NCBI GenBank assembly: GCA_019358985.1
Contig: JAHHIJ010000047.1
Span: 1-42,471, forward strand
Length of the DNA stretch: 42,471 nucleotides
Direction: 5' to 3'
Source of the DNA: Tolypothrix brevis GSE-NOS-MK-07-07A
GTDB lineage: Bacteria > Cyanobacteriota > Cyanobacteriia > Cyanobacteriales > Nostocaceae
Part shown: positions 8,163-30,598 of the stretch, one piece after another
Layout of the letters: each line of letters opens with the position of its first letter
Numbering within the stretch: the stretch's first letter is position 1
The notes under the pieces: generated by a model
Seen by the model: only the letters and a program-made list of their open reading frames with translations
The model's database searches: none
Told to the model about the DNA's origin: nothing
Translations under genes and position numbers: made by a program

Positions 8163-8179
8163 CTTTCTAAGTTCTTTCT

Positions 8180-8211: not shown

Positions 8212-8225
8212 ATTCATAGATAAAA

Positions 8226-8702: not shown

Positions 8703-8703
8703 A

Positions 8704-10892: not shown

Positions 10893-10945
10893 AAACTTTA
10901 ATATTTTTAAGTTAAAAAGAACTGATAATCTTTATCTTAAAACCT

Positions 10946-11599
10946 GTGGGATTAGCAGATATTGCTTTTGAAGCCTTAGAATCAGAAACTGTTCGGAACG
11001 GTTTAGCCAAACAGGGAAAGAGAGTTTTTAAGAGTTCTTTTGAAGAAGAGCAGAAGGATGATAAAGGCGGTTTTTTAGGCTGGCTGTGGAATGGAGCGAA
11101 ACGTTTAGCCGGTTTTATTTTTGACAATATCGGCAAACTTTTATCTTTTTCTTTAACGACCCTTTGGGGATGGTTTACTAGTACGCTTCAGTATATTTGG
11201 AATTTTAATTGGAATATTACCGATAAAGAAATTGATACTCAGATACAAGCGAAGTGGGACGCTTTAGGTAGTATGCTCGGCGGTACCGTCGGTAACTTTA
11301 TCGGTTACTTGGGGTGCGGGGTATTACCTGCTGCAACTATATTTGCTTTTAACGAGCCTCTAGGGGCTTATATTATGGCGAATGTGACTGAAGAATTGGC
11401 AGAAGAATTATTAGGGAATCTGTCATCTCTTGTTCGTTACACCTTTATTAGTACGACCGAAACTTTAATATTATCTTCCTTTAAAAATGCTCGTAAATTT
11501 ATTAAATCAAATCCAAAACTGGTTGAAAGCATTTTAGGGGCTAAGGTCGGCTTTGCGGAAGATTACCTCACCTGTGGGTTTGATTACCCAGATATATAG
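10946..11599 (+). pseudogene. Membrane-associated protein, 3' end lost at a junction
   Basis: A 217-residue ORF starting at GTG. The N-terminal part is amphipathic; it then has hydrophobic stretches (LAGFIFDNIGKLLSFSLTTL, and FIGYLGCGVLPAATIFAF) that could insert in membranes. The last 20 or so codons (from about 11534) read through the opposite-strand TPR-CHAT coding sequence, so the native C terminus is missing and the current tail is artificial. Holin- or tape-measure-like features could be imagined, but no family is recognised. It is the last gene of the operon. Confidence 0.5.
11534..11550. other. Recombination junction joining two truncated genes
   Basis: To the left, the plus-strand membrane gene loses its native end. 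To the right, the minus-strand TPR-CHAT gene stops right after the linker VIKPTGEVIFRKADL, where the paralogue at 13377-14726 continues with the whole CHAT domain. Both breaks fall in the same few bases, so an element boundary, deletion or inversion end lies here. No IS or direct repeat was seen at the junction. Confidence 0.6.
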
Positions 11600-12278
11600 C
11601 TCTGATTCTTTGGTTTCTTGTCTACCTGCTATTTTGAAGTCATCAGTAATAATTGAATATTGGACTAAGGTGGCATTTTGCGATTTGGCAGTTTGTTTAA
11701 TTTGGTCAATATTTGGTGGGTTGGATAATTGTTCTTGAGGGTTAGAAGATACTTGAGAAGCGAGTAACTCTACAAAGGCACGTCCTCTTCCTCGCTCGGA
11801 TATTTCTAGCGCTCTATCTGTTTTATTTTGAGCAATCAGGACGGATTGTAAAATGCGGTAAGTATTAGTTTGCTCCTCAAAAAATGAAACTTTAAAAGCA
11901 TCATTACTACCTAATCTCTGACGTTGAGATTCCCAAACCTCTATTCCCAATTGTAGGATTTTTTCTGCTTCTGGGAGTTTGCCTGATTTTTCCAGAGCAG
12001 CGCCTAAGTTGTTCAGCGCATTACCCTCGCTTTGACTGTCTTTTATTTGACGTGCAATTGTCAAATGCTGTTGATAGTACTTAATTGCCTTAGCATAATC
12101 CCTCAGATTAGCATAAGCATTTCCCAAATTACCTAGTGCTTTTCCCTCGCTTTGACTGTCTTTTATTTGACGTGCAATTGTCAAATTTTGTTGATGATAC
12201 TCAGTAGCTTTGGTATAGTTCCCCAGGTTAGCGTAGGCATTTCCCAGATTGCCCAGCACTTTTCCCTCACCTTGGCGG

Positions 12279-12421
12279 TTTTTGATTTGGCGTGCGATTG
12301 TTAACACCTGTTGATAGTAATCAATTGCCTTAGCATAGTTGCCTAATGAATTGTAAGCAATTCCCAGATTACTTAGCGCTGCAATCTTGCTTTCAGAATC
12401 TTTGATTTGGCGTGCAATTGT
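12279..12421 (-). repeat. 143-bp exact duplication within TPR repeats (copy 1)
   Basis: The block at 12279-12421 is identical to 12639-12781, 360 bp away, which equals three 120-bp (40-residue) TPR units. Other units of the array differ at many positions, so this pair reflects recent unequal crossing over or gene conversion. Confidence 0.85.
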
Positions 12422-12638
12422 TAATGCCTGTTGATTGTACTCAATCGCTTTGGCGTAGTCCCCCAGGTAATGGTATACATTTCCTAAATTAACCAGCGAC
12501 TGACTCTCCCTTTGAGGGACTTTAATTTGGCGTGCAATTGTCAAAGCCTTTTGGTTGTACTCAATCGCTTTGGCATAGTCTCCTAAGTTTCGGTACACAT
12601 TTCCTATACCACCTAGTGTGTTACCCTCAAGATGAGGG

Positions 12639-12781
12639 TTTTTGATTTGGCGTGCGATTGTTAACACCTGTTGATAGTAATCAATTGCCTTAGCATAGTT
12701 GCCTAATGAATTGTAAGCAATTCCCAGATTACTTAGCGCTGCAATCTTGCTTTCAGAATCTTTGATTTGGCGTGCAATTGT
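12639..12781 (-). repeat. 143-bp exact duplication within TPR repeats (copy 2)
   Basis: Second copy of the block described at 12279-12421. The shared protein stretch includes SNLGIAYNSLGNYAKAIDYY. Confidence 0.85.
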
Positions 12782-13376
12782 CAACGCCTGTTGACTGTAC
12801 TTAATAGCTTTGGCATAGTCTCCCAAAGAAAGGTAAGCAGCTCCCAGATTACCCAGCGCTTGACCTTCGCTTTGAGGGTCTTTGATTCGGCGTGCGATTG
12901 TCAAATCTTGTTGATGGTACTCAATTGCTTGGGCATGGTTTCCCAGGTTACGGTAGGCAACTCCCAGATTACCTAATGCCTTACCCTCGCCTTGACGATC
13001 ATTGATTTGACGTGCGATTACCAATGACTGTTGATAGTACTCAATCGCCTTGGTATAATCTCCCAGGTTACGGTAAGCAACTCCCAGATTATTCAGCACC
13101 TTACCTTCGCCTTGACGGTCTTTGATTTCACGGTAGATAATCAATGCCTGTTGCCAAGACTGCAATGCTGCCTCAGATTGATTTTAAATTGTTCGCGACC
13201 TTGTTGCAATAATTTATCAGCTTCAGCTTTCCGTGCATCCAACGCCTGCGCCAAAACCCGCGATTCAACCGACACCATCGGCAACCGAGAACCCAACGAA
13301 GTCGAAAAAACAGCCAACAGACAAACAAACACACTTAACCCAATTTTACAGGAACGCATAGCCATACCCCTCACCA

Positions 13377-14726
13377 CTACAACAAACCAATCAACGTAAA
13401 ACCAGCCCAATCGCGAGGATTTGGATACTTTTTCATCGTTTCCAGCATCGCTTGACGTAACGCACCCGCTTTATCCGTATTTCTGCTTAAATTACCATAA
13501 AATTCAGTAATTAGAAATGCCGTCGCCATATCATCCACTTCCCATAGTGAACCAATGACGCTATCTGCACCGGCGCCTAAAAAAGCACGGGAAAGCCCAA
13601 TTACCCCATCACCTGTGATGCGTCCCAAAGCTGTATCGCAACCAGTCAAGACAACTAAATCGGCTTTGAGGTTCATATTCTGGATTTCTTCAGTCCTCAA
13701 CCAACCATCATCTCGATCCGAAGTAGCAAGCGCGATCGCATCAGGAGAGTTTCCTTCCTGACAATCATTAGAAAAAGCATTGGCTGCTAAGTGAATTATT
13801 TTGGCTTGGGGCATTTTTTCCACAATTACAGTTTCTGTGGCAGCATCACCGATGAGTGCTTGGGCTTTAAATATTTGTGCGATCGCATTTGCTTCTTTCT
13901 CTGTACCCGGTAATGGTTGTGATTTACAGATTTCCCCTCCTGGTTTTAGAGGTGTTTTTGGTGCGGTAGGATTACCTACTATTAATAATTCATCAGCCGT
14001 GATATTTTTGGCGACGAAAGGTTGTTCACCTTTACGTTTAATTTTTCGTTGGTAAAGTAAATCTAATGCCTGAATTGATGGTGCAGTGGAAATTGTGTAT
14101 TTTTCAATCAAATATTTGCCATTTGCATCTTTTAATGCAGCAAAGGGAACGGTGAACAATTCACCTTGAGGAATAAAAATAACTTTTTCATCGGGTTTTT
14201 GTGGTAGTAAATTAGCGATGGGTTCTATTAAGACTTGATGCAATTTTTGTAAATCTGGTAATGAGTTATTTTTCTTAGGTTTAGATTCGATTTGAATTCC
14301 TTTTGTACCCGCACTTCTGGCACTAAATATGCGTCGTTCTCTTCTAAATAAGTTGAGAAATGAATTCTTTTCTATTTTTTCCCAAGCTTTTAAGTCAACT
14401 TTGCGAAATTCTACTTCACCAGTGGGTTTAACGACCCAAATATATAGTTCTGATTCTTGAGTTTGGGGTTTGCCATCAACAATGGATTCATTCGAGATGA
14501 TTGAATATTGTACAAGTGTGGCGTTTAGTTGTTTTGCTGTTTTGACAAGTGATGATTTATTCGGTTGTTGAATTGGAGAATTATCTTTGTTACCTGCTGT
14601 TGTCTCTAACTGGTTTGCTGATTTGTCCGATGCGATCGCATGATTAATTGGGGTTGATGTTATCGCAATAATACTGATAGTTATTGTCGAGATAACTATC
14701 TTTAAGAGATATTTTGGATTTGGCAT
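13377..14726 (-). CDS. Exported CHAT protein with His replaced by Asn
   Basis: A 449-residue product with an N-terminal hydrophobic segment (LKIVISTITISIIAITSTPI), so it is probably exported or anchored. There are no TPRs; the linker SELYIWVVKPTGEVEFRKVD leads directly to a CHAT (caspase-HetF-associated) domain. The nucleophile region VVLTGCDTALG keeps Cys363. The His block, usually HLATHG, reads HLAANA, so the expected catalytic His is Asn316. The protein is thus probably an inactive pseudo-protease or a decaying copy. The neighbouring downstream gene is the reverse case: TPRs without CHAT. It starts 92 bases after the end of the small TPR gene. Confidence 0.85.
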   Translation of the reverse strand: MPNPKYLLKIVISTITISIIAITSTPINHAIASDKSANQLETTAGNKDNSPIQQPNKSSLVKTAKQLNATLVQYSIISNESIVDGKPQTQESELYIWVVKPTGEVEFRKVDLKAWEKIEKNSFLNLFRRERRIFSARSAGTKGIQIESKPKKNNSLPDLQKLHQVLIEPIANLLPQKPDEKVIFIPQGELFTVPFAALKDANGKYLIEKYTISTAPSIQALDLLYQRKIKRKGEQPFVAKNITADELLIVGNPTAPKTPLKPGGEICKSQPLPGTEKEANAIAQIFKAQALIGDAATETVIVEKMPQAKIIHLAANAFSNDCQEGNSPDAIALATSDRDDGWLRTEEIQNMNLKADLVVLTGCDTALGRITGDGVIGLSRAFLGAGADSVIGSLWEVDDMATAFLITEFYGNLSRNTDKAGALRQAMLETMKKYPNPRDWAGFTLIGLL

Positions 14727-14818
14727 AACTGTTGGTTAAGGAGATTTAGAAGATATTTCGTCATGCTACAGATTCCCAACTTTTTCAAAAAATCGGGAAT
14801 CTTAGCTTAGTATTTGCA

Positions 14819-15445
14819 CTAACTAATTTGTTTCAAAATATCTAGTGCTCTTTTCGCATTGTCAGTTTTACCTTCTTTCTTATACAGTTCCGCAGCTTGT
14901 CTTAAGTCTGCAACTGCTCCCTGTTTATTACCTAAATAACCTTGAGTAATACCGCGCCAAAAATAAGCATGGGCAAAGTCTGATTCTAGTTTGATTGTTT
15001 GATCAAAGTCTGCTAGTGACTGTTCGTATTGTTTTAAGTGAAACTGAGCGAAACCTCTCCCAAAGTATGAGTAATGGGATTTTGGCTCAATGCGAATTGC
15101 TTGGTTAAAGTCATCAACTGCTGGCTGGTACTTATCTAGCTGGGTGTATGCTAAACCTCGCATTATATAGGCTCCATAATTATTCTTATCTTGTTCTAAA
15201 ACCTTGTTACAATTCTTAATTGCTTTGTCATAATTACCCTTTTCTAGGTACTCTCCTGCCTGATTTACTAATGTCTCGATATTATTGCTATTTTCCGGGT
15301 TGGAGTTAGGTGTTGATTGTGGTTGTAGTTTTGCTTGGGCAATAAGGATTGATTCGGGTTGATTGAGGTTTTCTGCGAATACTTTGGGACTGGAAACAAT
15401 TGCGCCTAATACAGCCATGCTGAGTGCTAATGTGAATTTTTTCAT
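14819..15445 (-). CDS. Exported TPR protein
   Basis: A 208-residue product with a signal peptide (MKKFTLALSMAVLGAIVSS... FAEN) and four to five classical 34-residue TPRs from about residue 55 (YDKAIKNCNKVLEQDKNNYG, then YSYFGRGFAQFHLKQYEQSL). This TPR type differs from the 40-residue repeats in the neighbouring CHAT genes. It is likely a periplasmic adaptor and lies between two CHAT genes on the same strand, so it may scaffold them; that role is inferred from position. Confidence 0.85.
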   Translation of the reverse strand: MKKFTLALSMAVLGAIVSSPKVFAENLNQPESILIAQAKLQPQSTPNSNPENSNNIETLVNQAGEYLEKGNYDKAIKNCNKVLEQDKNNYGAYIMRGLAYTQLDKYQPAVDDFNQAIRIEPKSHYSYFGRGFAQFHLKQYEQSLADFDQTIKLESDFAHAYFWRGITQGYLGNKQGAVADLRQAAELYKKEGKTDNAKRALDILKQIS

Positions 15446-15641
15446 TTTTCTGATTCCTGAATGATTGATGATTGTTGAGTGGTGTTTGGGAAAGAGAAAT
15501 AGATACGTTCGGCAGAGTGAATTACAATTGTTTTTTCCGTTCTGGAAGTATCTTTTGCTTTCTTGGTTTTATGTATTTCTGGGAGCAAGGAGGATATGCC
15601 AAAATTTTGCGGCTTGGTGAAATTTTTTTGAAAATTCCTGT

Positions 15642-18176
15642 TTATTCTGCGTTGCCAATTAGGGTGAAAGCTGCCCAGTGTATGGGATGGGGATGTTTTT
15701 TCATTGTGCTTAACATTGCTTGACGTAGGGCTTTGGCTTTGTCAGGATTTTGCTGTAATTGGCGGTAAAATTCTACCATTAAATCTGAAGTGGAACTATC
15801 ATCAACTGCCCACAGGGAAACGATTACACTCTCTGCTCCCGCAGTCAGCAAGGAACGGGATAATCCCACGACTCCATCACCTGTGATTTCTCCTCCACCA
15901 GTATCGCAAGCACTTAAAACCACTAAGTCTGCTTTCAAATTTAAGTTAATTATTTCGGTTGTTTTGAGCAATCCTTCGTTGACACCAGGAGTATCGGGAG
16001 CAAGTGCGATCGCACCTGGTATTCTTTCCCCAAAGCCATAGAGTAACCCATGTGTGGCTAAATGAATTATTTTGGCGGTTGATATTTTTTGCAGTACGGC
16101 AGATTTTGTTGCTTGTTTACCGATTAAAGGTTGAGTGTTGAGGATGGGGGCTATTTTGTTCGCTTCTTTTTCTGTACCGGGTAAAGGACGTTGTTGTACG
16201 GGGGGAATCCCTGTAATTGGCATAATTGGGTTCCCTACTAGTAATGTATCTCCCGGTTGCAGAGATGCAATATTCAATGTTTCTGTGTTTTTACGGGTGT
16301 AGTCTAATACCTGAATTGCTGGAGCAGTAAGGATGGTATGCTTTTCAATCAGGTATTTGTTGTTTGCATCTTTGAGCGCTGGGAAGGGAACGAGAAATAG
16401 GGATTCATGGGGGATAAAAATTACGCGATCGCTCGGATTTTTGGGAAGATGGTTGGCGATGGGTGTAATTAGGAGTTCGTGGAGTTGTTGTAAGCCTTTC
16501 TTTTGATTTTCTGGACTTGGTTGAGGTGGGTTTATAGTTTCAGCACCACGTTCTTTCATAACAGCACCTGTAACACCAAGAGAACGGCGACTGGTTTCTA
16601 CTAATTTTTTCAGAGGTGTTTTAAGAGATTTTAAATCTACTTGTTTAAATACAATTTCTCCAGTGGGTTTTACAACCCAAATATAAAGTTTTTCATCCTT
16701 GGCTAAGAAATATTCAACAAGTGTAGCTTTTTGCTGTTGAGCAATTTTTTTTATTTGAGCAATGGATGGAATTATGTTTAAAGATTTATTACTTCTGGTT
16801 GATTTTGAGGTGATTAAGTCGATAATTGCTCTGGCTCTACCACGTTCGGATATTTCTAATGCTTGTTCTATTTTATTTTGGGCGATTAAAGCTTTTTGTA
16901 ACCAGCGATAGGTAGTGGCTTGTTGTTGAAATATTGATATTTTTTGCTCATCATTTAATGTCGCCCGTAGTAACTCCCAAATTTTAATAGCAGCATAGAG
17001 AGGTTTTTCCGCTTCGGAGTAATTACCTTGATCTATATAATTTGCACCAATATTATTGAGAGTTCCACCTTCGCCAGAATCATCACGAGTTTGTTTACGA
17101 ATAGGTAATGCTTGTTGATAATAATCTAATGCTTTTTGGTACTGTTTTAAATTGTTGTGAACTACTCCAATATTGTTTAAATAAGTACCTTCACCAGCTT
17201 TATCACCAATTTGTCGAGCAATAGCTAATGCTTGTTTACAATAATCTAATGCCTTTTTATACTCTCCGCGACTGCGATAAACTAAACCAATATTACCAAG
17301 AGTAGTTTCTTCACCAGCTTTATCACCAATTTGTTGGGCAATAGTTAATGCTTGTTGATAATTATCTAATGCTTTTTGGTATTCTCCCTGATTGTCGTAG
17401 GATACCCCAATATTGCTGAGAATTATACCCTCAAGTGCTTTATCACGGATTTGTCGAGCAATAGTTAAAGCTTGTTGATAATTATCTAATGCTCTTTGAT
17501 ATTGTCCCAAGCTATTATAAACTAAACCAATATTGTTAATCGTTGTACTTTCAAGTTCTTTATCTCCAACTTGTCGAGCAATAGTTAAAGCTTGTTGATA
17601 ATTATCTAATGCTTTTTGATACTGCCCCAGACTGCGATAAACTTTGCCGATATTATTAATAGTTGTACCTGCACCAGCTTTATCATCAATTTGTCGAGCA
17701 ATGATTAAGGCTTGCTGATAATAATCTAATGCCTTTTGATACTCTCCCAGATTGTCATAAATTTTCCCAATATTGTGGAGAGTTGTACCTTCGCCGGATT
17801 CATCATTAATTTGTCGGGCAATGGTTAAGGCTTGTTGATAATAATCTAATGCTTTTTGGTACTCTCCCCGATAATCGTAAACTTTTCCTATGTTGTCTAA
17901 AATTCTACCTTCGCCTAATTTATCATTGATTTGTCGAGCGATAGTTAAAGCTTGTTGATTATAATCTAGTGCTTGTTGGTACTCTCCCAGATTCTCGTAG
18001 ACTGAACCAATGTTGCTTAAAATTCTACTTTCACTTCCCTTATCACTAATTTCTCTGCTAATTACTAGCGCTTTCCCAAATAACTCTAGGGCTTCTTTAT
18101 ATTTACCTTGGCGAAATAATTTAAGTCCCTGTTTATTTAGTTCCCTTGATTCTTCTAATCATTGTGATGCAAGCAT
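15642..18176 (-). pseudogene. TPR-CHAT protease with in-frame stop at codon 6
   Basis: An open frame of 838 codons runs from 18158 to 15642. It has about thirteen 40-residue TPRs (YQKALDYYQQALTIARQI...), a linker, and a CHAT domain with His (HLATHG) and Cys (LSACDTGGG), at 487 and 535 counted from the TTG at 17510. Between 18158 and that TTG there is no ATG, GTG or TTG in frame. The only sensible start is ATG 18174-18176, giving MLASQ followed by TGA (18159-18161). CGA to TGA would explain the stop. Translation from TTG 17510 would remove five or so TPRs. Unlike its neighbours it shows no signal peptide, so it may be cytoplasmic or have lost its true 5' end. The start codon lies inside a hairpin. 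Confidence 0.75.
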
Positions 18177-18203
18177 CTTTTTCTTTATTCAAAAACGCTT
18201 GCA
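18168..18203 (-). promoter_or_regulatory. Hairpin enclosing the TPR-CHAT start
   Basis: TGCAAGC (18168-18174) pairs with GCTTGCA (18197-18203), and TTTTT (18178-18182) with AAAAA (18191-18195), leaving a small bulge and an 8-base loop. On the minus strand it lies between the end of the 223-residue gene and codon 1 of the TPR-CHAT gene, covering the ATG. It could hide the start codon or act as an intergenic terminator-like stem. Confidence 0.5.
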
Positions 18204-18229
18204 CTACAGATTTTTACTGTCCAGATGCA

Positions 18230-18901
18230 TCAAGAATCACACAAATCCTTAACAATCTTTTCCCGCATCTTGACTAAATCCGGTGAAGGCTTCTCCACCG
18301 AGTAAGCTTGCTGCAAAGCATCTGACCATAATGGAGTTTCTTGTTCTAAAAAATACTTCGCTTTTGCAAACGCGATACCCTCAGCACTTGTTCCCTTAGC
18401 TTTTTCTTGCTGCTCCAATTGCTGTAAATAATTGGTAATGCGCTGTCTTTGCTGGGGTTCCATGATTTTAAAGGCAATATTTCCTGTCCAAGAGTTCTCA
18501 ATTGCTACTGACCAATTGTATTGTTGACCGGGAAACAATGGTTTACCCGTATAATTCGCATAAAGCTGTCCTGTTTGGATATTGTCAGTTGCAGTCGCAT
18601 TGGGAATACCCTGGGAAAGTCCGACTTTTCTAAGATTCCCTTGCCAAATTATAAACGGGCGATCGCTCCAAACTATCTCATCACGAACTGGTGCAGCAAT
18701 ACAAACACCATTTATGGTTGGACGTGGTGCTCCTTTACCGCTTCCCACTGGACGCTTTCTCCGAAAAAGATTCCACCAAGAAAAAGACTCCTGTGCTGGA
18801 CGCTTTTCTGCATAGGATACTTGATTTGGTAAAACGGGAAGAAATGTAGCAGTCATCGCAGATATCAATAAGCTAGATAAAATCAAGTTGTAATTATTCA
18901 T
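18230..18901 (-). CDS. Exported protein of unknown function, coupled to CHAT-CHASE2
   Basis: A 223-residue product with a signal peptide (LILSSLLISAMTATFLPVLP) and a basic patch (LFRRKRP). The mature part has one beta-rich segment (DEIVWSDRPFIIWQGNLRKV... PGQQYNWSVAIEN) that could be a fibronectin-like or cell-surface domain, and a helical C terminus (RITNYLQQLEQQEKAKG... LWSDALQQAYSVE). Its ATG overlaps the stop of the CHAT-CHASE2 gene by 8 bases, so the pair is translationally coupled. It is likely the periplasmic partner or substrate of the CHASE2 sensor, by position only. Similar proteins next to CHASE2 genes seem familiar from cyanobacteria. Confidence 0.75.
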   Translation of the reverse strand: MNNYNLILSSLLISAMTATFLPVLPNQVSYAEKRPAQESFSWWNLFRRKRPVGSGKGAPRPTINGVCIAAPVRDEIVWSDRPFIIWQGNLRKVGLSQGIPNATATDNIQTGQLYANYTGKPLFPGQQYNWSVAIENSWTGNIAFKIMEPQQRQRITNYLQQLEQQEKAKGTSAEGIAFAKAKYFLEQETPLWSDALQQAYSVEKPSPDLVKMREKIVKDLCDS

Positions 18902-21428
18902 GGATTTTTCTCCGTAAAAAAGCTGATGTGAAATACGTCCAAACAGTAGCAGATGGTAAAAAGCAAGGGAAAAGAATTGCTAGGGATGATATGTATATTT
19001 CCAAACTAATAATTCCATAAACGATAGTCAGTAAAGAAAGTAACATGAACCATTGCCAACGATACCGGGGATGTTTGCGTAATAAAAAGTAGAGATATTT
19101 CCCCATCAAAATAGCAATCCCTAATATCCAGATATCGGGAATAGGTATAACCAATCTCTGGGTGAGGAAATGATGCACCATATAGGCATGAACTTCTCCA
19201 CCTGGTATAATTTTGCTATTGTTTCCCTGTTGCAATCGCCAAAAATCTAGTGCTGGTGGTACATCAAAGTTATCTTCTTTATCCATAGACATTCCTGCTT
19301 CATCATATCCCCCTGCTGCGATAATAACTACTTGTTTTTGTAGGTTAGCTAAGGGTAGATTTTTACTATCTTGTTCTAATAATTTCCACGCAGGGACGGA
19401 TTCATATATTTGATTAGGAGGGATGGAAAAATCAATAATCGGATGCAACCACATTTGGGAAATGATAGTACTGTAATCTGTGATTGGTTGCAACCGAGAA
19501 CGAGGTGAATTTAAAATCGTATTGTCTCGCGTATTCTGTTTATTCCGGTTAATATAACTATTTAACTGCTGCCAAAAATTGCTTTGACTATCTAGTTTTG
19601 GTTGGGGAATCTTGGAATTATTGTTACTATCTTGACTGGAATTATCGAAAGAAGATTTTAATTGATGTGATAAAGCTAATAAACCTGCAAAAGTAAAAGA
19701 GGCTGAATTATTATTTGACGGTGGTAACAATGTAATATAACAAGGTATACGCTGTATTTTATCACAAAATAAGATTTCAATTTCCCCATCTAAACTCCAA
19801 TTAGAACTAGCAATTTCTGGGATTACAGTTTGCCAAACTCCAGCATCAGATTCAGTTCCCGCGAAGATAAACCAAGTTGGGTTAGGGGATTTATTAATCC
19901 CGTTTTTAATTGCTTGAGCTAAAAATTTATCGTTGTCGGGTTGATGTCTATCTAATACAAAGTCAATCCCGATTATTTTCGCATTTCTATCTGTTAGCTG
20001 ATTGACTAAACTCGCAATATATTCACGATTCATCGGTCTAGGATTGCTGATTTTACCTTTAGATTTTTTAATTGATTCGTCGTCTATTTTTACGATTAAT
20101 ATGGGAGGAACCTCTTGCTGGTTAACCTTTCCTGTTAATTGACGATAGAGAGACTGTACCCATAATCTGTGTCCTAATAAGTGATTTTGGATAGGAATTT
20201 GTAAGCTAATTAATAATAAAGCTGTAAGTGCGATCGCTTCTTTGCGAGCAGGAATAATTTTTTGGAGTCTTTGTTTAATTCCAAATGGTTCAACCTTAAA
20301 TAAAGGTGCTTCGGGATGACGAAATAAAGAAGGGATTAAATAAGCACTGGGATATGTCAGATTTTTCTCTGTTTTTAGATATTGTGAGGATAACAATAAA
20401 GCTTCGTGAACATCTTTAAATTCCGCTAAAGCTTGTAAAAAGTGTAGTAAAAATTCCCCTGCTACCGCATTATGAACAGGTTCGCGCATCACAGCAACTT
20501 GACTTAAACCCAAGTCAATAAGAGAGTTAGCAATATTCAAACCATTGCAGGAGTTGAAAATTGCAAATTGTAAACCACGTTTTATTGCAATACTTAATAA
20601 TGGTGCAACTTCGCTAATGGATAAAGTGGCGTTTTTAGCAATACTAATTTCTCCCCCAGTGATATTATTTTCATTACTATGTCCAGCAAAAAATAAGATA
20701 TCCCAACCTGATTCTGAGGTAAGAGCGTCTTTAATTTTAGTTTTTAAATCTGGAATACTTACTTCTGGCTGCAATCCGACAAATTTTACATCAATTATAT
20801 TTTTCAATTGATGCATGGCTTTCTTCTCAGCTTTGAAATCTAAGCCAGTTTCATCACCTAAAATTGCTAATACTCTCACTTTACGAGTAAGCCGATGATT
20901 TTTCTGTGTAAATCCTTGATGAATATTTATTGGTGTACGAACAATGCGAACTTTGCCAGAAGAAAGTGCAAATTCTGTACCAATTTCCCACGATTCCCAA
21001 GGAAAGCGTTCTAAATCTATGGTGTTACAAGTAATAAAAAGATTTGTAATTTCTGGCGATTGAGAAGGGGTTTCTATCTTTTCTTTTTCTCCTACTACAT
21101 TAGCTAAAGCCATACGAATTTCATATAATTCTCCACAACGCAACCACTTATGAAATTCCAACAAAAATTTAGCTTCCGCTTGCACTAATTTTGCCTGCCA
21201 ATCAGTTGGAGGAGTAGCAAGAACACCGCTATCTGCAACCCTACCACGTACTGATTGTGTTTTGTAATTTTTGTAATAATTTAGATAGGAACGTTGCCAA
21301 TTTTGATAGAGTATGGTGATATTTTGAGGATAGGGAATTGTCACATTTAGCTGCTGTCCTTTTCCCCAAGTGAGTTGAAATAAACAAAGATTTTCGATGT
21401 GTTGAACTTTGAGATAAAAGTTGCTCAT
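18894..21428 (-). CDS. CHAT-CHASE2 membrane sensor protease
   Basis: An 844-residue protein. Residues about 1-390 hold a cytoplasmic CHAT domain with the dyad His250 (ILFFAGHSNEN) and Cys294 (FNSCNGL). A transmembrane segment (IALTALLLISLQIPI) follows, then a CHASE2 extracellular sensor (VPPILIVKIDDESIKKSKGK... IIGIDFVLDRHQ), and the C terminus has three membrane segments (IWILGIAILMGKYLYFLL, LLSLLTIVYGIISLEIYI, LAILFPCFLPSATVW). CHASE2 domains sense unknown periplasmic signals, so the protein probably links an outside signal to proteolysis inside the cell. It is 72 bases downstream of the giant TPR-CHAT gene and overlaps the exported 223-residue gene. Confidence 0.9.
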   Translation of the reverse strand: MSNFYLKVQHIENLCLFQLTWGKGQQLNVTIPYPQNITILYQNWQRSYLNYYKNYKTQSVRGRVADSGVLATPPTDWQAKLVQAEAKFLLEFHKWLRCGELYEIRMALANVVGEKEKIETPSQSPEITNLFITCNTIDLERFPWESWEIGTEFALSSGKVRIVRTPINIHQGFTQKNHRLTRKVRVLAILGDETGLDFKAEKKAMHQLKNIIDVKFVGLQPEVSIPDLKTKIKDALTSESGWDILFFAGHSNENNITGGEISIAKNATLSISEVAPLLSIAIKRGLQFAIFNSCNGLNIANSLIDLGLSQVAVMREPVHNAVAGEFLLHFLQALAEFKDVHEALLLSSQYLKTEKNLTYPSAYLIPSLFRHPEAPLFKVEPFGIKQRLQKIIPARKEAIALTALLLISLQIPIQNHLLGHRLWVQSLYRQLTGKVNQQEVPPILIVKIDDESIKKSKGKISNPRPMNREYIASLVNQLTDRNAKIIGIDFVLDRHQPDNDKFLAQAIKNGINKSPNPTWFIFAGTESDAGVWQTVIPEIASSNWSLDGEIEILFCDKIQRIPCYITLLPPSNNNSASFTFAGLLALSHQLKSSFDNSSQDSNNNSKIPQPKLDSQSNFWQQLNSYINRNKQNTRDNTILNSPRSRLQPITDYSTIISQMWLHPIIDFSIPPNQIYESVPAWKLLEQDSKNLPLANLQKQVVIIAAGGYDEAGMSMDKEDNFDVPPALDFWRLQQGNNSKIIPGGEVHAYMVHHFLTQRLVIPIPDIWILGIAILMGKYLYFLLRKHPRYRWQWFMLLSLLTIVYGIISLEIYISSLAILFPCFLPSATVWTYFTSAFLRRKIHE

Positions 21429-21500
21429 GTATACTTGCTGATTGGTAGTGCGTTATTTATTAGTAAGGAGAGATGCAATTAATTACATCTCTGATGTTGT

Positions 21501-24500
21501 TTATAAACCGTTACCAATTAAAATAAATGGTGCCCAGTAGTAAGGGTGAGAATAACTACTTTTTCGTTGTTCGTTTCTGGGTAATGCTTCTTGTTCTCTC
21601 TCTACATAAGCACCACGTTTATCACCATTCTCTACGGTATAATTATCACCTTTGAGCATACTTAATTGTGCTTGACGTAGTGCTTGAGATTTCGTCATTT
21701 TGCCAGTGGCTAAGTTTTTGTAAAAATCTTGCATCAGTTTAGCCGTACTAGGATCATCCACCTTCCACAGAGAAGCCATTACTGATTTCGCACCTCTTTT
21801 CAAAAAATAATTAGCAAAAGCATTAATCTCTATACCTTCTTGATTAGGACTAGAAAGTGCGGTTTGACAAGCAGAAAGTACAACAAGATGGATATATTTT
21901 AAATCAACCAAAGTTTGAATCAGAGTTGGATTCAATAAAGTTTTATCTCCTAAAAGTATGTAAGATTGTTGTGAGCTATTAGGGTCAAATACACCATGAG
22001 TTGCCAAATGCAAAACATTATTACCTTTCAGATTATTTTCTATTGTAGAGAAGTTAAACTGAGAGTTTAAGAAAGTTTTTCCATTATAAATGCCTTGTTT
22101 ATCGCTAGAATCAGTTTGCTCTTTGACAATAAAATCTAATTCTTTGGGTACACTCTTTAAACCCTTAAAAGCAGGTATTATGCCATTTTGAGGTACAGAA
22201 TCAGAGAGTCCCATTCCTAATATGTTGGTATTTCCAGTGCTTAGGGATGGTGACGGTTTAGTCGTATTTGTTAAATCTGCCGAAGGTGCAACATAAATAG
22301 AATATTTTTCGATCAGGTATTGATTTCCATCAAATAATGCACTTGTGGGAATATAACGTGTCACCCTATCCAGAGCAAAAACCAAATTTTCTACAGGATT
22401 AGCGTTTAATTCTTTTTCTATTGGTTTAATAAGCCAGCCATAAAGCTTTTTACTTGCTGCTTTTACTTTAGTAATATCTTCACCACCGCAGTAAGCTAAT
22501 TTTTCACATTTTTCCATCAAACTGCGAAATTCTTTTACTGCATTTCCTAATTCTACACGCCCAACCGGAACAGTAACTGTTTTTACGACACCTTTTTTGC
22601 CATACAACTGTATATATAATTCTCGTTCTCCCACTAATGGATAAATCATTACAGTGTTGGGACTAGCTTCAACGATTTCTCCAATTTTTCCTAAGATTGT
22701 AGGGTCAAAGAAAATATCATCTTTATGACGGTTATCACTTATTAACTTATTAAGCCCTTCCAACTGCTGTATATATTGTGTAATTACCTCACTTCGCTTC
22801 TGTGTTAATTGGCTACATTTTTGACTATTTGTTGGTTTACATTCAGTAATTTGATATCCTAAAGCAATAATAGACTCGTTTAAAGCTGGGACTTTCTGCT
22901 CTATTTCTGTGAGAGGAATTTGTGGTTTTTCAGTAGAATCACTTCGAGTATTTGTAGACTCACTAATTTCCTGTCTTCTTAATAAATCTTGCACGTATAA
23001 CGCTTCTTTATCTTTTCCCTGCTTAATTAACAACTCTGCAAGTTGACGATAAATATCTGAAACTTTGACTTTATCGAAATCAAATGTTGAATTTAAGAAT
23101 GAGTTTTGTAATTCTTTGGGTAAACCTTCGATACCGCTACGAATTTCTTCAAGTCTATTAACAGATTTTTTATAGAATGTAATAGCAACATTAGGTTGAT
23201 TCAGATTCTGATAAACCTGTGCTAATCCAGCATAAATACCTGCATCTGCACCTTTGACTTGATTCTCTGTTTTAATTGCTAAAGCTTGTTGATAGGCAAC
23301 TATTGCTTGTTCTGTTCTGCCAAACTTGCGATGTAAACTACCAATATTACTCAGTGCGAGCTTTTCCCAAACACTATTTTTGTTTTTTCTCGCAAAATCC
23401 AAAAATGCTTGAGCAGATTCCATTGCTTTTGCATCATCTTTTGATTCACCATAGCCAGCACTCAAAATTAATTTGGATAAAGCTTCTAAGCGTGGTTCTT
23501 TAATGTCTGTAAAAATCGCCAATGCTTTTGTTACTGAATCTATCGTTTTATTCGTTTCTCCTTGATAAAAGTAATTACTAGCTAGAGCTAATAAAAGTGT
23601 ACCTTCACCTTTACGATTATTGAACTGTTTGACTATTGTCAATGCTTGTTCGTAATATTTGGCACTATTTTTGTAGTCTCCTAGCTTGCTATAAATATCT
23701 CCCAAAAAATATAAGGTATCAACTTGAATGATAGGACTTTTGAGTTGCTCTGCTATTTTTAAACTTTGCCGTGTCAAATCTAAAGCTTGTCCATAATCAT
23801 TCAGGGAACTGTAAATGCTACCTAATGCTGTCAAGGCATAGACTTCCAATAGTGGATTTTTTAATTCACGGGCTGTTGTCAAACCTTGTTCAACTAGTTG
23901 TTTCCCTTTAGTATATTGCCCAGTTAATCCATATGCTTTACCTACAACAATTAAAACTTCTGCTTTTCTGACTGGATTATTTAACTTTTGAATTTTACCA
24001 AGAAGGGGTTCACCAAGATCCGTAATTTTCTGATATTGTCCTGTGGCTTCATAAATGTTAGCCAAGGCAGCAATAGACTCTATTTCATAAATGAAACTAT
24101 TTGTCCGATATGAAATATTTAATGCTTGTTCTGCTGTTTTAATACCTTTGTCATATTCTCCTAGAAACTTATATACTTTGCTGAGGTAGATTAAACAACC
24201 TACTTCAAAGATAGAGTTTGATTGTTGTTTGGCTATAGATAAAGCTTTTTGTGCCGTTTCAGATGCTGTACTGATATCTCCTACATAAATGTAATTATCA
24301 ACGAGATTTAACAAAACAAGAACTTCATACCCAGGTATTTTACTTTGTACCATTTTCAAATTTTGCTGTGTTATCTCTAAAGATTTTGAGTAGTTACCCT
24401 GATTAAAGTAAATGTCACGTAGATTATTTAAAGCATCTTTTTCTAAAGAAGGACTTTCTACTCGCTTGGCTATATTCAACAATTGCTCTGCTGACTCTAA

Positions 24501-27059
24501 TGCAGAAGCATAATTACCTTGTTTCATATAGGTATCGCTCAATTGTTGTAATACCTTAGCTTCAATTTTAGGTTCTTTGATTTGTTGAGCTATGATTAAA
24601 GCTTCCTTACTTGTATTAATTGCTTTAGGAAAATCTTTAAAATCATTAGTATATAGTGCAGCCAAGCTAATGAGAGCGTCTGCATGATACTCTGGGATAG
24701 CTGATGTTTGAGCATTTTTTACTGCTTGTTGAGCATAATATAATGCTTTGTTTGATTGTCCAAGCCAGCTGTAACTATGCTTTAAACCAGTTAAAGCTGA
24801 ATTTTCCACTAGTACGAGATGCTTTTTGGAACTTGGAGCTAATATTTTAATATCAATTTTCCGGGCTAAATCTAATGCTTGCGAATGTATTTCAACAGCT
24901 TTTTCATGCTGTCCGAAAAAATTATAAGTCCCAGCAATAGCATTTAAAGTACTTACCTGTCCTAGAGCATATTTATTTTTCTTGTGAACTTCTAAGAGAC
25001 GTTTATCTATTTCTAGCTTTTTTGTGTATTCTCCCTGTTGATTGTAAATATTTCCTAAAATAGATAAAGCCGTTGCTTCTGTGCTTAACGCTTTTGATTT
25101 TTTAGCAATATTTGCTGATTGTAATGCAGTTTCAATAGCTTTGTCATTCTCGCCAAAAAAAGCATAAGCAGAGGCTAAATTACCTAATGAAGATGCTTCT
25201 ATCTCTGACCTATTAAGTTTTCTGGCAAAAATTATAATTTTTTGTGATATCTCTATTAAATGAGAATATTCGACTTTGGCTTGAGCATATAATTCTCTGA
25301 CGAATAAGTCTGTTGCTTTAGAGCTATAAGCTAGACTCATTTTATGCAGTGAGGTCAATTCACCTTCTTTATCGTTAAGTGTTTGATAAATGCTTAATGC
25401 TTGTTTAAAAAGTGCGATTGCTTCGTCATCTTTATCTTGAGCCAAATGGCTTTCCCCAATTACCAGATAAAAGTTTGCTTGGTATGGTTTGTCTTTAAGC
25501 TCTAGTATAAGTGGTAGTGCTTGTTGATAAATTGCAACTGCACGGTCATATTTTTGTTGTTGTTTGTAAGTATCTCCAATTTCTCCAAGAATATTAGCTT
25601 CCCGCGATTTATCTTTTGCCTCCCTAGCTACGGGTAATGCTTGTTCGTATATTTTAATTGCTTGATTATACTGTTTTTGAGTAAAATAAATGTTACCCAT
25701 CATATGAAGAATAGCTGCTTCTAATGATTTCTCTTTTACCTCTGTGGCAACACTTAAAGCTTGTTGATAAGATTTCAACGCAGGTTCGTATTTCTCCTGC
25801 AACTTATAAGCATCACCCATCACTGTCAGAATATTAGCTTCCCGTGATTTATCTTTTGCATCTCTAGCGACTGGTAATGCTTGTTGGTAAAAGCTCAACG
25901 ACTGCTTATATTGTTTTAGCTTAAAATAAGCATCCCCTAATAAATTTAGAAGGGCTGCTGTTTGTGATTTATTATTGGGTATTTCTCGCGCAATCGATAA
26001 CGCTTGTTGATAATTATCAATTGCCTTTTCATATTGATTGAGCGTAAAATAGGTATTTGCTAATTTTACAAGTAGGCTACCTTCTTGTGGTTTATTTTTT
26101 GATTCTTGCGCTATAGTTAGTGCCTGTCGATAAAATTTTATTGCCTCATCATATTGTTTGAGATTGTTAAAAGCATCTCCTATTGACGCTATAATACTTT
26201 CCTGTGCTAGGCTAATTCCTGCTTCTCGAATTAAAGGTAAAGCTTGTTGATAAAACTTAATTGCTTGGTCATATTCCTGTTGATTAAAATGCATCAATCC
26301 TATCTGCTGCAAACTTCTACCCTCAAAAGCACGGTTTCCTACCTCTCGATTTGTTATCAGTGACTTCTTGTACCATTCCAAAGCACGAGGATAGTCATCT
26401 GCATTCCAATAAACGTTCCCTATTCTAAATAAGGTAAAACCTTCTTGAAACTTGTCTTTTAGTTCTTGATGTAACGCTAATGCTTCCTGTAAAAGCTTCA
26501 AGCCCTGTTCTTGCTTTTTCAAGAAAACGTAAGTAAATCCTATCTTACTAAGAGTCGCTGCTTCCCCATTTCTATCTTTGACCTCACGGCGAATTGCTAA
26601 GGCTTGTTGTAAAGTTTCGAGCGATTTTTCGTCTTGTTGCAAACTGAGGTAAACTGCACCCAGAATATCTAAAGTTTCTCCCTCTCCAGCACGGTCTTTA
26701 ATTTCCCTGCGAATTGTCAATGCTTGTTGTAAAACTTCTAATGCTTTGTCGTTTTGCTGTAAACCATTATAAACCTGTCCTATATTATTGAGGGTTTGCC
26801 CAATACCCGCTTTATCCCCCAGTTTTCGCCGAATCTCCAACACCCGTTGATAAGTCTGCAACGCTTTGGGATATTCCCCACGTCGAAACAACTGCACCCC
26901 ATCCTGAAACAACTTATCTGCTTCCGCTTTCCCATCAGAACTTGTCGCAGTTTGTGCCAAAGTATGCTTGATTACTACGTCATTCGCTGCTAAACCAACA
27001 CCACAAGTCAGTGAAAACACTAAACTAGCTAAAGCAAAACTCTTCAAACGGTTAGACAT
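21501..27059 (-). CDS. Giant exported TPR-CHAT protease
   Basis: An 1852-residue protein, unusually long for the family. It starts with a signal peptide (LKSFALASLVFSLTCGVGLA) and carries more than thirty 40-residue TPRs up to about residue 1430 (YDQAIKFYQQALPLIREAG...), a linker helix region, and a CHAT domain at the C terminus. The dyad is His1688 (VLHLATHGVFDP) and Cys1731 (VVLSACQTALSS); the conserved SLWKVDDPST follows. Everything looks intact. TPR-CHAT proteins are controlled by partners bound to the TPR superhelix. It is the promoter-proximal gene of the CHAT run, preceded by 280 bases without another gene. It is likely periplasmic. Confidence 0.9.
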   Translation of the reverse strand: MSNRLKSFALASLVFSLTCGVGLAANDVVIKHTLAQTATSSDGKAEADKLFQDGVQLFRRGEYPKALQTYQRVLEIRRKLGDKAGIGQTLNNIGQVYNGLQQNDKALEVLQQALTIRREIKDRAGEGETLDILGAVYLSLQQDEKSLETLQQALAIRREVKDRNGEAATLSKIGFTYVFLKKQEQGLKLLQEALALHQELKDKFQEGFTLFRIGNVYWNADDYPRALEWYKKSLITNREVGNRAFEGRSLQQIGLMHFNQQEYDQAIKFYQQALPLIREAGISLAQESIIASIGDAFNNLKQYDEAIKFYRQALTIAQESKNKPQEGSLLVKLANTYFTLNQYEKAIDNYQQALSIAREIPNNKSQTAALLNLLGDAYFKLKQYKQSLSFYQQALPVARDAKDKSREANILTVMGDAYKLQEKYEPALKSYQQALSVATEVKEKSLEAAILHMMGNIYFTQKQYNQAIKIYEQALPVAREAKDKSREANILGEIGDTYKQQQKYDRAVAIYQQALPLILELKDKPYQANFYLVIGESHLAQDKDDEAIALFKQALSIYQTLNDKEGELTSLHKMSLAYSSKATDLFVRELYAQAKVEYSHLIEISQKIIIFARKLNRSEIEASSLGNLASAYAFFGENDKAIETALQSANIAKKSKALSTEATALSILGNIYNQQGEYTKKLEIDKRLLEVHKKNKYALGQVSTLNAIAGTYNFFGQHEKAVEIHSQALDLARKIDIKILAPSSKKHLVLVENSALTGLKHSYSWLGQSNKALYYAQQAVKNAQTSAIPEYHADALISLAALYTNDFKDFPKAINTSKEALIIAQQIKEPKIEAKVLQQLSDTYMKQGNYASALESAEQLLNIAKRVESPSLEKDALNNLRDIYFNQGNYSKSLEITQQNLKMVQSKIPGYEVLVLLNLVDNYIYVGDISTASETAQKALSIAKQQSNSIFEVGCLIYLSKVYKFLGEYDKGIKTAEQALNISYRTNSFIYEIESIAALANIYEATGQYQKITDLGEPLLGKIQKLNNPVRKAEVLIVVGKAYGLTGQYTKGKQLVEQGLTTARELKNPLLEVYALTALGSIYSSLNDYGQALDLTRQSLKIAEQLKSPIIQVDTLYFLGDIYSKLGDYKNSAKYYEQALTIVKQFNNRKGEGTLLLALASNYFYQGETNKTIDSVTKALAIFTDIKEPRLEALSKLILSAGYGESKDDAKAMESAQAFLDFARKNKNSVWEKLALSNIGSLHRKFGRTEQAIVAYQQALAIKTENQVKGADAGIYAGLAQVYQNLNQPNVAITFYKKSVNRLEEIRSGIEGLPKELQNSFLNSTFDFDKVKVSDIYRQLAELLIKQGKDKEALYVQDLLRRQEISESTNTRSDSTEKPQIPLTEIEQKVPALNESIIALGYQITECKPTNSQKCSQLTQKRSEVITQYIQQLEGLNKLISDNRHKDDIFFDPTILGKIGEIVEASPNTVMIYPLVGERELYIQLYGKKGVVKTVTVPVGRVELGNAVKEFRSLMEKCEKLAYCGGEDITKVKAASKKLYGWLIKPIEKELNANPVENLVFALDRVTRYIPTSALFDGNQYLIEKYSIYVAPSADLTNTTKPSPSLSTGNTNILGMGLSDSVPQNGIIPAFKGLKSVPKELDFIVKEQTDSSDKQGIYNGKTFLNSQFNFSTIENNLKGNNVLHLATHGVFDPNSSQQSYILLGDKTLLNPTLIQTLVDLKYIHLVVLSACQTALSSPNQEGIEINAFANYFLKRGAKSVMASLWKVDDPSTAKLMQDFYKNLATGKMTKSQALRQAQLSMLKGDNYTVENGDKRGAYVEREQEALPRNEQRKSSYSHPYYWAPFILIGNGL

Positions 27060-27340
27060 TGGTTACTCCTCTTTTATTGCTACATGCTGCTTGTTCAATC
27101 TCTTGTATTTCTGAGGGCAAACCAGGTTATGCCAAAATTTACGCAAAACTTAAAAATAAACCTCAGCATAGTTACGATACCTTGAGGTGACATACCGTAC
27201 AAACACTGATGACTATGGGCAATGTAAAGATATTGTGAAGAAAAGTCAAAAAAGTTTCTAGTATTCCCTGCATTACAACATAAATACCTTTTGCTATCCT
27301 ATAGATGTAAACCACTTTTGTGATTTTATGGTTGACACTT

Positions 27341-29251: not shown

Positions 29252-30598
29252 TCACCTCCCTAAATCAAAAGCAAACGGTGGTAAAGTCACCTCAACCCCA
29301 TCCATCAAACTCACACTTACCAAAAACTTCTCATCCCAATTACCCACTACACGGGTAAATATATAAGCATCTTCGCTTTCTGCATTTAATCCCAACTCAT
29401 CTAAAATACCAGTTTGGTCGCTAACTCTAAGTTTAATATCAGCAGGTAAACTACTCAAAGCAGGAGCGCCTAAAATTAACAATAAACTCCATTCCCGTTG
29501 CTCAGATTCTCCCACCAAATGCCAAGTTACCGCATACATCCGCAAAGGAATCCCAGCTAACAATATATCCTGATACGCACCCCTTGCTTGGACAGGAATT
29601 TCCAAACCCCTCTGTCGCAATTGGGTAGCAATTACCTCAAATTCTTCCTCTGGACTACGCATTGGACGCATTCCTGAAGCTGGCACAAAACTTGGTAAAA
29701 GCACCCAAGAAAGTCCCTGTGCTAACTCATCTAACTCATTCCCTAACCAACGTCCAGCGTTCACTGCTGGTTGAGTAATTAATTTGATTAAATCTCGTAA
29801 AAAGGTATTTGCAGGAGGATAATTTTGTTGCTGTAAGGTATAAACCCAATTCAGTAATTCTGGATTCGTAAATACAGCAGTTGCTTGTTCCCAGGTTAAA
29901 ATATCAGACAATTCCCGTTCAGGAGATTGCAATTCAGGTAATAATTCAAGTAATTGATTTTGTACCCTTGCTAAAATCTCTGCACGGTTTGTAGGAATTG
30001 CGGGTAAGGAGATTGCTGATACTTCCAAACAACGTAAATATAACAATAAACGGTCTGGATTATTATCAAAAGATGATATTGGTAGTTGATAATTCCCATC
30101 TGATTGTAGAGACGTTAAATTTTGCCTCTCTAGCAATTCTTGATAGGATAAGAAAGCGTAAATATTCGCACTTTGTCGTTCTTCTAGCACCTCAACTAAA
30201 ACATAAAAATGTGGGATAAACTCAGGTAAATCAACAACTACTCTTGGGAAACTCACCATTTCATCACTGAGGCTACCAGTAGCAATCAAACAAACCTTAA
30301 ATTCACCAACTTTTAAATTAGCAACACCATTAATAAAATTTGCTAAAGCAGTTTGTAAAATCGTACATTTATCTGAATTAATAGTTAGCGATTCTGCCCT
30401 TTCATCTACCCAGGTTTCAAAAGCAGATAAAGCCAAACAATTGAGATACACTTGCCATTGCTTCAACCGATTGGGAATGCGATCGCTAATTTCTGCGGCT
30501 CGGTTAATATCATCATCTGATAAAATAATTGCTGAGGTTGGTAAATCGTCGAAGTCAAGGTAAGACATGGGTAAAATATTACTTGTAAGGTTATTCAT
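29252..30598 (-). CDS. DUF1822 family protein
   Basis: A 448-residue protein matching DUF1822, a cyanobacterial family of unknown function: helical N terminus (RIPNRLKQWQVYLNCLALSA) and FETWVDE, a middle helical region, and a beta-rich C terminus (VVGNWDEKFLVSVSLMDGVE). Length is typical. It follows the sigma-factor-like gene with a 2-base gap, so the two form an operon. DUF1822 genes are known to accompany sigma-like and CHAT/TPR genes, which fits the neighbourhood. Its own molecular role is unknown. Confidence 0.85.
   Translation of the reverse strand: MNNLTSNILPMSYLDFDDLPTSAIILSDDDINRAAEISDRIPNRLKQWQVYLNCLALSAFETWVDERAESLTINSDKCTILQTALANFINGVANLKVGEFKVCLIATGSLSDEMVSFPRVVVDLPEFIPHFYVLVEVLEERQSANIYAFLSYQELLERQNLTSLQSDGNYQLPISSFDNNPDRLLLYLRCLEVSAISLPAIPTNRAEILARVQNQLLELLPELQSPERELSDILTWEQATAVFTNPELLNWVYTLQQQNYPPANTFLRDLIKLITQPAVNAGRWLGNELDELAQGLSWVLLPSFVPASGMRPMRSPEEEFEVIATQLRQRGLEIPVQARGAYQDILLAGIPLRMYAVTWHLVGESEQREWSLLLILGAPALSSLPADIKLRVSDQTGILDELGLNAESEDAYIFTRVVGNWDEKFLVSVSLMDGVEVTLPPFAFDLGR

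Follow-up and report, generated by a model that had tools for sequence, protein, structure and literature searches.

The closest described systems to the locus reported here are those of Kaur 2021 (PMC8195603), in which a constant N-terminal module is combined with a caspase, CHASE2 is among the C-termini, and an extracytoplasmic function (ECF) sigma factor and DUF1822 are encoded adjacent to it. In type III-E CRISPR Craspase, the TPR-CHAT protein Csx29 cleaves Csx30, a restraint on a sigma factor, and the protease is reported to relieve the inhibition of that factor in this way (PMC10028731). Our locus lies in a window of 42,471 nucleotides (nt), positions 1 to 42,471 of contig JAHHIJ010000047.1 (assembly GCA_019358985.1) from the cyanobacterium Tolypothrix brevis GSE-NOS-MK-07-07A. 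We suggest, with moderate confidence, that it encodes a transcription switch under the control of a sensor, and that the outputs of this switch are exported and mostly resemble proteases.

The core of the locus appears to fit the EACC2-caspase / DUF1822 / ECF-sigma systems, with the EACC2 domain matched by architecture. Common to both are a constant module with a caspase, a variable C-terminus and DUF1822, and beside them Kaur 2021 has an ECF sigma gene and the window a sigma-like gene, recognised by profile comparison only. However, the sigma slot of the window contains a far diverged protein that is missed by single-protein searches. The window also adds a DUF928-like partner, exported TPR-CHATs, a pseudo-CHAT, a subtilase and a promoter-like motif, and no mention of these additions was found in the parts of Kaur 2021 (PMC8195603) drawn on here. 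The initial annotation had stated that no system of this composition is described. Given the CHASE2/caspase/ECF sigma/DUF1822 system of Kaur 2021, this can hold solely for the exported CHAT/TPR/DUF928-like part and for the promoter motif.

Craspase (Csx29, Csx30, CASP-sigma) resembles the locus in having a CHAT protease and a sigma factor in one locus, but in the window the sensor is CHASE2 and the inhibitor candidate is DUF1822. Membership in Craspase was rejected, as the Csx29 model reaches only 25.6 bits on the free CHAT and 28.1 bits on the TPR-CHAT, with a cut-off of 300. Another cyanobacterial membrane protein with a CHAT domain is HetF of Anabaena, a CHAT-transmembrane-TPR protein that is part of the divisome (PMC8406250). 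This membership was also rejected, with the NCBIfam HetF model at 14.2 bits on the CHASE2-CHAT protein against a cut-off of 1200. A literature search found no publication joining "CHAT domain" and CHASE2, while DUF1822 came up in two publications and DUF928 in one, and no earlier description of the motif, the sigma-like family or the pseudo-CHAT clade was found in the parts of the related literature drawn on.

The initial annotation described a minus-strand run of five CHAT loci from 11534 to 27059. The run is real and makes up the distal half of a larger locus, which many cyanobacteria have in common. However, two of its five CHAT loci are damaged, and the proposed controlling part, the sigma-like gene and DUF1822, lies upstream. 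The run was therefore rejected as a natural unit, since the locus also includes the sigma-like gene, DUF1822 and a divergently oriented subtilase gene, at 27.1-34.4 kb. Some outputs of the locus have decayed in this genome, while its core is intact. The intact frames are given below, where "exported" means a hydrophobic N-terminus by hydropathy and the cut-off for Pfam CHAT (PF12770) is 24 bits:

30601..32001, minus strand: sigma-like gene, 466 amino acids (aa), by profile comparison with the DUF1822-linked sigma family
29252..30598, minus strand: DUF1822 protein, 448 aa (PF08852, 183.5 bits)
21501..27059, minus strand: giant exported TPR-CHAT, 1852 aa (PF12770, 213.5 bits; TPR matches)
18894..21428, minus strand: CHASE2-CHAT, putative membrane sensor-protease, 844 aa (PF12770, 30.8 bits; PF05226, 80.1 bits)
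18230..18901, minus strand: exported DUF928-like protein, 223 aa, with an 8-nt overlap with the CHASE2-CHAT gene
14819..15445, minus strand: small exported TPR protein (TPR208), 208 aa, with 84% identity to the copy in locus L050
13377..14726, minus strand: exported free CHAT, 449 aa, with the catalytic His replaced by Asn (PF12770, 242.0 bits)

The DUF1822 gene starts 2 nt downstream of the sigma-like gene. The giant TPR-CHAT has a hydrophobic N-terminus and both its catalytic His and Cys. The initial annotation was right about the giant exported protein of 1852 residues, the CHAT-CHASE2 gene overlapping an exported 223-aa partner by 8 bases, the CHAT with a replaced His and the exported TPR protein within the run.

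To compare the locus with its relatives, a profile search of genome contigs was made with an alignment of 11 CHASE2-CHAT proteins, and the best 80 of 261 loci were kept, all of which carry cyanobacterial titles. The order of the locus is sigma-like, DUF1822, giant TPR-CHAT, CHASE2-CHAT, DUF928-like, small TPR, free CHAT and TPR-CHAT, with subtilase or caspase genes alongside. A conserved neighbourhood, a check named beforehand in the initial annotation, is indeed found, as the order from the sigma-like gene through DUF1822, giant, CHASE2-CHAT and DUF928-like to a TPR208-type gene and/or CHAT recurs in other genera; examples of this order are L049, L050, L054, L056, L062, L072 and L117. Where the sequence continues for 900 nt or more downstream of CHASE2-CHAT, the DUF928-like gene follows it in 65 of 76 loci, and in 36 of them the overlap is exactly 8 nt. 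Within 9 kb, DUF1822 is present in 42/64 and the 466-aa gene in 37/64 of the loci with at least 3.5 kb upstream, and of the 44 sigma-like genes in the 80 loci, 41 have DUF1822 as the next gene. This genome contains a second copy of the locus on another contig (C2). Two further loci of this genome, L037 and L038 on contigs C41 and C26, apparently agree in gene content over about 10 kb, with an 805-aa CHASE2-CHAT among these genes, which is either a recent duplication or an assembly artefact.

Three exported genes of the window are preceded by a promoter-like motif of two blocks, GGCATAWCCT-N10/11-AGAAATAC:

15573..15600, minus strand: promoter-like motif, exact match, about 125 nt before the TPR208 gene
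27105..27133, minus strand: promoter-like motif, exact match, about 44 nt before the giant TPR-CHAT
32170..32197, plus strand: promoter-like motif, exact match, about 31 nt before the subtilase gene

These three are the only exact occurrences in the 6.52-Mb genome (100 shuffles gave a mean of 0 and the reversed pattern 0), and the motif is found at matching sites in relatives. In the window and the 80 loci (81 sequences, 1.40 Mb), a first matrix finds 62 sites of at least 20 bits, compared with 0 in 4.19 Mb of shuffled sequence. Lowering the threshold to 18 bits gives 71 sites, spread over 27 of the 81 sequences, compared with 3 in the shuffled sequence. All 62 sites fall outside frames of at least 150 aa, and 55 of them have a gene within 260 nt. 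A hydrophobic N-terminus is found in 43 of these 55 downstream genes, compared with 333/891 of all frames. With a second matrix at 14 bits or more, 107 of 846 upstream regions are hit, compared with 1 of 4230 shuffled ones. The hits are found before TPR208-type (34/56), S8 (6/12), C14 (4/12), CHAT (23/82), sigma-like (12/44), DUF1822 (5/47), CHASE2-CHAT (6/79), DUF928-like (0/66) and other genes (17/443). The second matrix adds 26 loci, so that 51 of the 80 contain the motif. Two copies of the motif are present in each of L060, L062 and L067, and three tandem copies with 81-nt spacing precede a TPR208-type gene at L056:13479-13668.

The motif is nearly restricted to these loci. A genome-wide scan of 17 genomes, which contain 18 of 20 chosen loci, found 40 sites in 10 genomes and none in 7, with 0 for the reversed control. 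In Calothrix NIES-4101, all three sites are inside its locus. By comparison of coordinates, 28 of the 40 sites are inside previously fetched loci and 12 outside. Of the latter, six are in G103, G104 and G107, and the six others, from four places, were examined. The site at G115:C3 leads to a whole further copy of the system with the same order, while the others precede an exported TPR-type protein (G108:C116), a CHAT gene (G108:C537) and a caspase gene (G102:C67). The C2 copy has a variant motif (TACATAA ... GAGATAT) at four places, all inside the C2 copy. A looser variant pattern has a fifth match, which is of the window type and is located on C50, about 46 nt before an exported CHAT. On a tree of 18 sigma-like proteins, the grouping by AGAAATAC needs 2 changes, compared with a shuffled mean of 6.1 and 0 of 500 shuffles as low. 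In this test any site with the AGAAATAC block placed a locus in the group, while C2 was assigned manually to the loci without the block.

The 466-aa protein appears to be a divergent, sigma-like relative of the DUF1822-linked ECF sigma-70 factors and is a candidate reader of the motif. In a profile comparison, its family matches the DUF1822-linked sigma family with 98.8% probability over 346 columns, while the control families (DUF1822, CHASE2-CHAT, DUF928-like and CHAT) reach at most 0.3% against the same family. The sigma alignment contains 17 proteins, three earlier ones and those from 14 of 29 fetched loci, the rest having failed a length/frame filter. A hidden Markov model of these 17 linked sigma-kind proteins also matches the relative from C2 (21.7 bits). 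Of two sister loci of this genome, L035 has an unambiguous sigma-70 gene just before DUF1822 (107.8 bits with TIGR02937, whose cut-off is 42.9), and in L036 the slot contains a protein that lacks a Pfam sigma match and is 32% like the L035 sigma. Only two of nine aligned relatives of the 466-aa protein hit TIGR02937 (best E 0.014). A survey of cyanobacterial sigma factors (PMC11119718) required at least one known sigma domain and has for this reason probably missed the family. Both conserved upstream partners, sigma-like and DUF1822, lack a hydrophobic stretch, and the DUF1822 protein is a candidate inhibitor or adaptor of the sigma-like protein.

The CHASE2-CHAT protein consists of an N-terminal constant domain, CHAT, a hydrophobic stretch, CHASE2 and three C-terminal hydrophobic stretches. 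His250 and Cys294 are invariant in the 11 aligned proteins, and all 11, the window protein included, lack an N-terminal hydrophobic stretch. Since CHAT precedes CHASE2 and there is no such stretch, CHAT is predicted to be cytoplasmic, i.e., the hydropathy suggests a topology with CHAT inside and CHASE2 outside. At the threshold for a membrane stretch, a 19-residue hydropathy of 1.6, the three stretches after CHASE2 all exceed it, and the one between CHAT and CHASE2 reaches it in 9 of the 11 proteins. Profile positions from about 17-31 to 366-370 also align in seven proteins from other genomes. Six of these were scanned, and their C-termini are nSTAND1-WD40 in two, WD40 in two and Peripla_BP_6 in two. 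At L159:2-6850, a sigma-like gene and DUF1822 are located beside an EACC2-CHAT protein that ends in nSTAND1-WD40 and not in CHASE2, so the switch is not tied to CHASE2. Another arrangement was seen by eye at L048:6357-14552, where a CHASE2-CHAT core has a 2731-aa frame as its neighbour; much of this frame is repetitive and adhesin-like, and it ends in a CHAT whose dyad is intact.

In the exported DUF928-like partner, Cys67 and Cys221 are invariant in an alignment of 49 proteins, which suggests a disulfide. Its predicted model is a beta-sandwich with four helices, for which Foldseek gives weak fibronectin-III/Ig matches only (best E 5.8e-3), and a profile search of the PDB with the family gave nothing useful (best E 0.037). 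The window protein has no match to PF06051 (DUF928, cut-off 26); two family members score 27.1 and 24.1 bits, and a profile comparison of the family with three DUF928-type proteins gives 90%. In a survey of seven cyanobacteria, one species has a CHASE2-DUF928-WD40 cluster, where a CHASE2 gene also adjoins a DUF928 gene (PMC5587647); unlike in our locus, no CHAT, sigma or promoter motif is mentioned in the parts of that report drawn on.

The free exported CHAT is a conserved, apparently dead caspase-like protein. Catalytic dyads were read for 88 of 104 CHAT domain hits, the other 16 being dropped as they had fewer than 200 residues from the domain start. Among these 88 rows (84 different sequences), 74 keep both His and Cys, as do the giant TPR-CHAT, the CHASE2-CHAT and the TPR-CHAT of the window, and the other 14 form one clade (99/90). 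All 14 rows of this clade, two of them identical, lack one or both catalytic residues, compared with 0 of the 74 others, and they come from several cyanobacterial families. The 13 pseudo-CHATs examined contain no internal stops and by eye mostly have signal-like N-termini, and in six pairs the ratio of nonsynonymous to synonymous substitution rates (dN/dS) is 0.18-0.40. From the absence of stops and these ratios, the pseudo-CHATs look like maintained genes. The gene is not universal, as it is lost in L049 and a fragment in L050. Conserved caspase-fold proteins without the His-Cys dyad are also known as cyanobacterial pseudo-orthocaspases, p20 orthocaspases in which Tyr and Ser replace His and Cys (PMC6426788). 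Pseudo-CHATs are instead exported CHATs in which the replacing residues vary, and here they occur in a single type of locus.

We suggest that the switch could work as follows. An outside signal would reach CHASE2 of the 844-aa protein, perhaps relayed by the DUF928-like partner, and would activate the cytoplasmic CHAT. The activated CHAT would then cut a cytoplasmic target, most plausibly DUF1822, and the cutting or release of DUF1822 would free the adjacent sigma-like protein. This protein could then start transcription at the GGCATAWCCT-N10/11-AGAAATAC promoters. The outputs would be the giant TPR-CHAT, the small TPR protein (and then the pseudo-CHAT) and the subtilase, as well as CHAT and caspase genes in relatives, and these exported proteins would fill the periplasm or the outside. 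There, the pseudo-CHAT may be a decoy or regulator of the active CHATs. The last part of this scheme, i.e., the motif and the exported outputs, is the best supported, whereas the first part draws on the predicted topology, the gene pairing and the Craspase precedent (PMC10028731). It can further be speculated, although we consider this more doubtful than the switch itself, that the locus is a membrane-anchored, CRISPR-free counterpart of Craspase. CHAT would destroy an anti-sigma-like DUF1822 and free a hidden sigma class with its own promoter code, paralogous copies would be insulated by their codes, and the dead CHAT would be an analogue of regulatory pseudo-caspases.

Several observations weigh against the switch. 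Scanned by itself, the 466-aa protein matches no sigma model of Pfam or NCBIfam, and a Foldseek search with its AlphaFold model gave no PDB match (best E 0.42). The model has a predicted local distance difference test (pLDDT) score of 85.7 and a predicted template modelling (pTM) score of just 0.59, and because of the latter a sigma fold may have been missed. No anti-sigma similarity was seen. Even at 14 bits, no motif precedes a gene in 29 of the 80 loci, and 9 of the 44 loci with a sigma-like gene are without it. The first matrix was trained on sites that it then re-found, and the 26 loci found by the second matrix alone include some with single weak sites. In the window, the sigma-like gene itself has a weak site only (14.2 bits), and the motif is rare before CHASE2-CHAT genes (5/79 at 20 bits). 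The variant pattern was derived from the C2 sites, so that only its absence elsewhere counts as a test, and the agreement between motif and tree is partly expected, because the sigma-like gene and the motif share their inheritance. In the window protein, the region that separates CHAT from CHASE2 is a borderline membrane helix (best hydropathy 1.54). The gene order has exceptions as well: the DUF928-like gene is absent from 11 of the 76 loci, of which seven carry the titles Okeania or Hydrocoleum, and only 38/67 loci have a nearby CHAT gene on the same strand.

Some of these observations would also agree with an operator, which we consider unlikely but the strongest of the alternatives. Here the 466-aa protein, as an ordinary helix-turn-helix protein, or another local factor would read the motif, the housekeeping sigma factor would transcribe, and the rest of the scheme would be kept. 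Individual relatives of the 466-aa protein mostly miss the sigma models and its fold has no sigma match. The PDB profile search with the sigma-like family gave weak matches only (best E 0.024), including a DeoR-type helix-turn-helix (E 0.043). Tandem motifs, as in the three copies of L056, are often found in operators. However, the match between the 466-aa family and the linked sigma family extends over 346 columns, GGCATA and AATACA are separated by 17-18 nt if taken as promoter elements, and 32 of the 55 sites with a nearby gene are located 25-53 nt before the start codon, as in a promoter. These three features argue against the operator.

Three genes of the window are damaged:

15642..17510 (frame open to about 18158), minus strand: TPR-CHAT with an intact dyad and a lost start (CHAT, 232.6 bits)
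11534..13365 (TPR-only frame 11534-13165), minus strand: remnant of an exported TPR-CHAT, from the reading frames and comparison with L049 and L050
32230..34401, plus strand: exported subtilase (S8), divergent to the sigma-like gene (PF00082, 161 bits on 32968-34401)

The frame of 838 codons that the initial annotation took for a TPR-CHAT does exist, but no ATG, GTG or TTG is found upstream of 17510 and 622 aa are left. The TPR-CHAT of L049, a Tolypothrix relative, has 91% identity and aligns only from its residue 69 on. The DNA similarity between the window and L049 breaks at 18239 and restarts at 18160, while the same interval in L049 extends from 13208 to 14130. As the L049 interval is far longer, about 0.84 kb, including the start and signal peptide of the TPR-CHAT, has been deleted in the window. 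Similarly, the TPR-only copy is present as a frame but is really a frameshifted TPR-CHAT, with its signal peptide in a different frame (13365 to about 13175), cut where CHAT would start; both ends are present in the L049 and L050 copies. Neither gene was accepted as a working part in this genome. In a search for displaced parts of the cut TPR-CHAT, the best match to its CHAT half in five compared stretches of this genome was 59% identical, and the best relative of its caspase neighbour in this genome was 48% identical. The subtilase has an in-frame stop near 32940, across which an L050 frame aligns at 86%, and in L039 it is a single 704-aa frame.

At 11534, the TPR-only remnant ends against a plus-strand block of genes (3752-11599). 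One gene of the block encodes a VapE-like/DUF3854 helicase-primase, and another frame weakly matches phage tail proteins. As the block adjoins the cut end and overlaps it, it may belong to the mobile element that truncated the last TPR-CHAT. Between DUF1822 and the giant TPR-CHAT, a DUF4351 / transposase-31-like gene is located at 28297-29208. The same slot contains a 303-aa gene of this type in L059 and L060 and a short reverse-strand piece in L065.

This decay could mean that there is no system, only CHAT genes that multiplied in this genome and accumulated through tandem duplications in a degenerate island next to a mobile element. The three damaged genes and the phage- or plasmid-like block with its VapE-type helicase agree with this, and so do the 53 CHAT matches in the genome (18 above 200 bits); among 14 control genomes, CHAT matches were found solely in Methanosarcina acetivorans. 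The clustering in the run exceeds chance, as its 15.5 kb would be expected to contain 0.13 CHAT matches and contain 4, a comparison in which independence of the copies cannot be assumed. Moreover, on the CHAT tree the giant, the TPR-CHAT and the free CHAT are in separate lineages with relatives in the loci of other genera, and both the conserved order and a motif that is common to the genes and nearly bound to the locus contradict such a pile-up, which makes it very improbable. Slightly less probable still is the purely periplasmic proteolytic network of the initial annotation, in which the CHASE2 protein would work as a protease alongside the exported CHATs. In its favour, the stretch has four intact proteins whose N-termini look export-like, and the partner coupled to the CHASE2 protein is exported. 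The evidence also supports that CHASE2 senses the outside and that the output is exported and protease-like, but CHAT precedes CHASE2 with an N-terminal hydrophobic stretch in 0 of 11 aligned proteins, so that this CHAT is predicted to be cytoplasmic, and the conserved upstream partners, one of them sigma-like, have no hydrophobic stretch.

To our knowledge, the triggers or outputs of the CHAT and caspase-like genes of multicellular cyanobacteria are mostly not known. New here are the promoter-like motif and a clade of pseudo-CHATs that lack the dyad yet are kept by selection. A promoter-like code found almost only beside CHAT and caspase-like genes makes their regulation directly testable, and it brings to light a likely class of sigma factors that would probably escape any survey in which a known sigma domain is required. 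The conserved exported dead CHAT is a candidate regulator. Finally, protease-gated release of a sigma factor has been shown for a CRISPR system, and the locus suggests that bacteria may use this design more widely.

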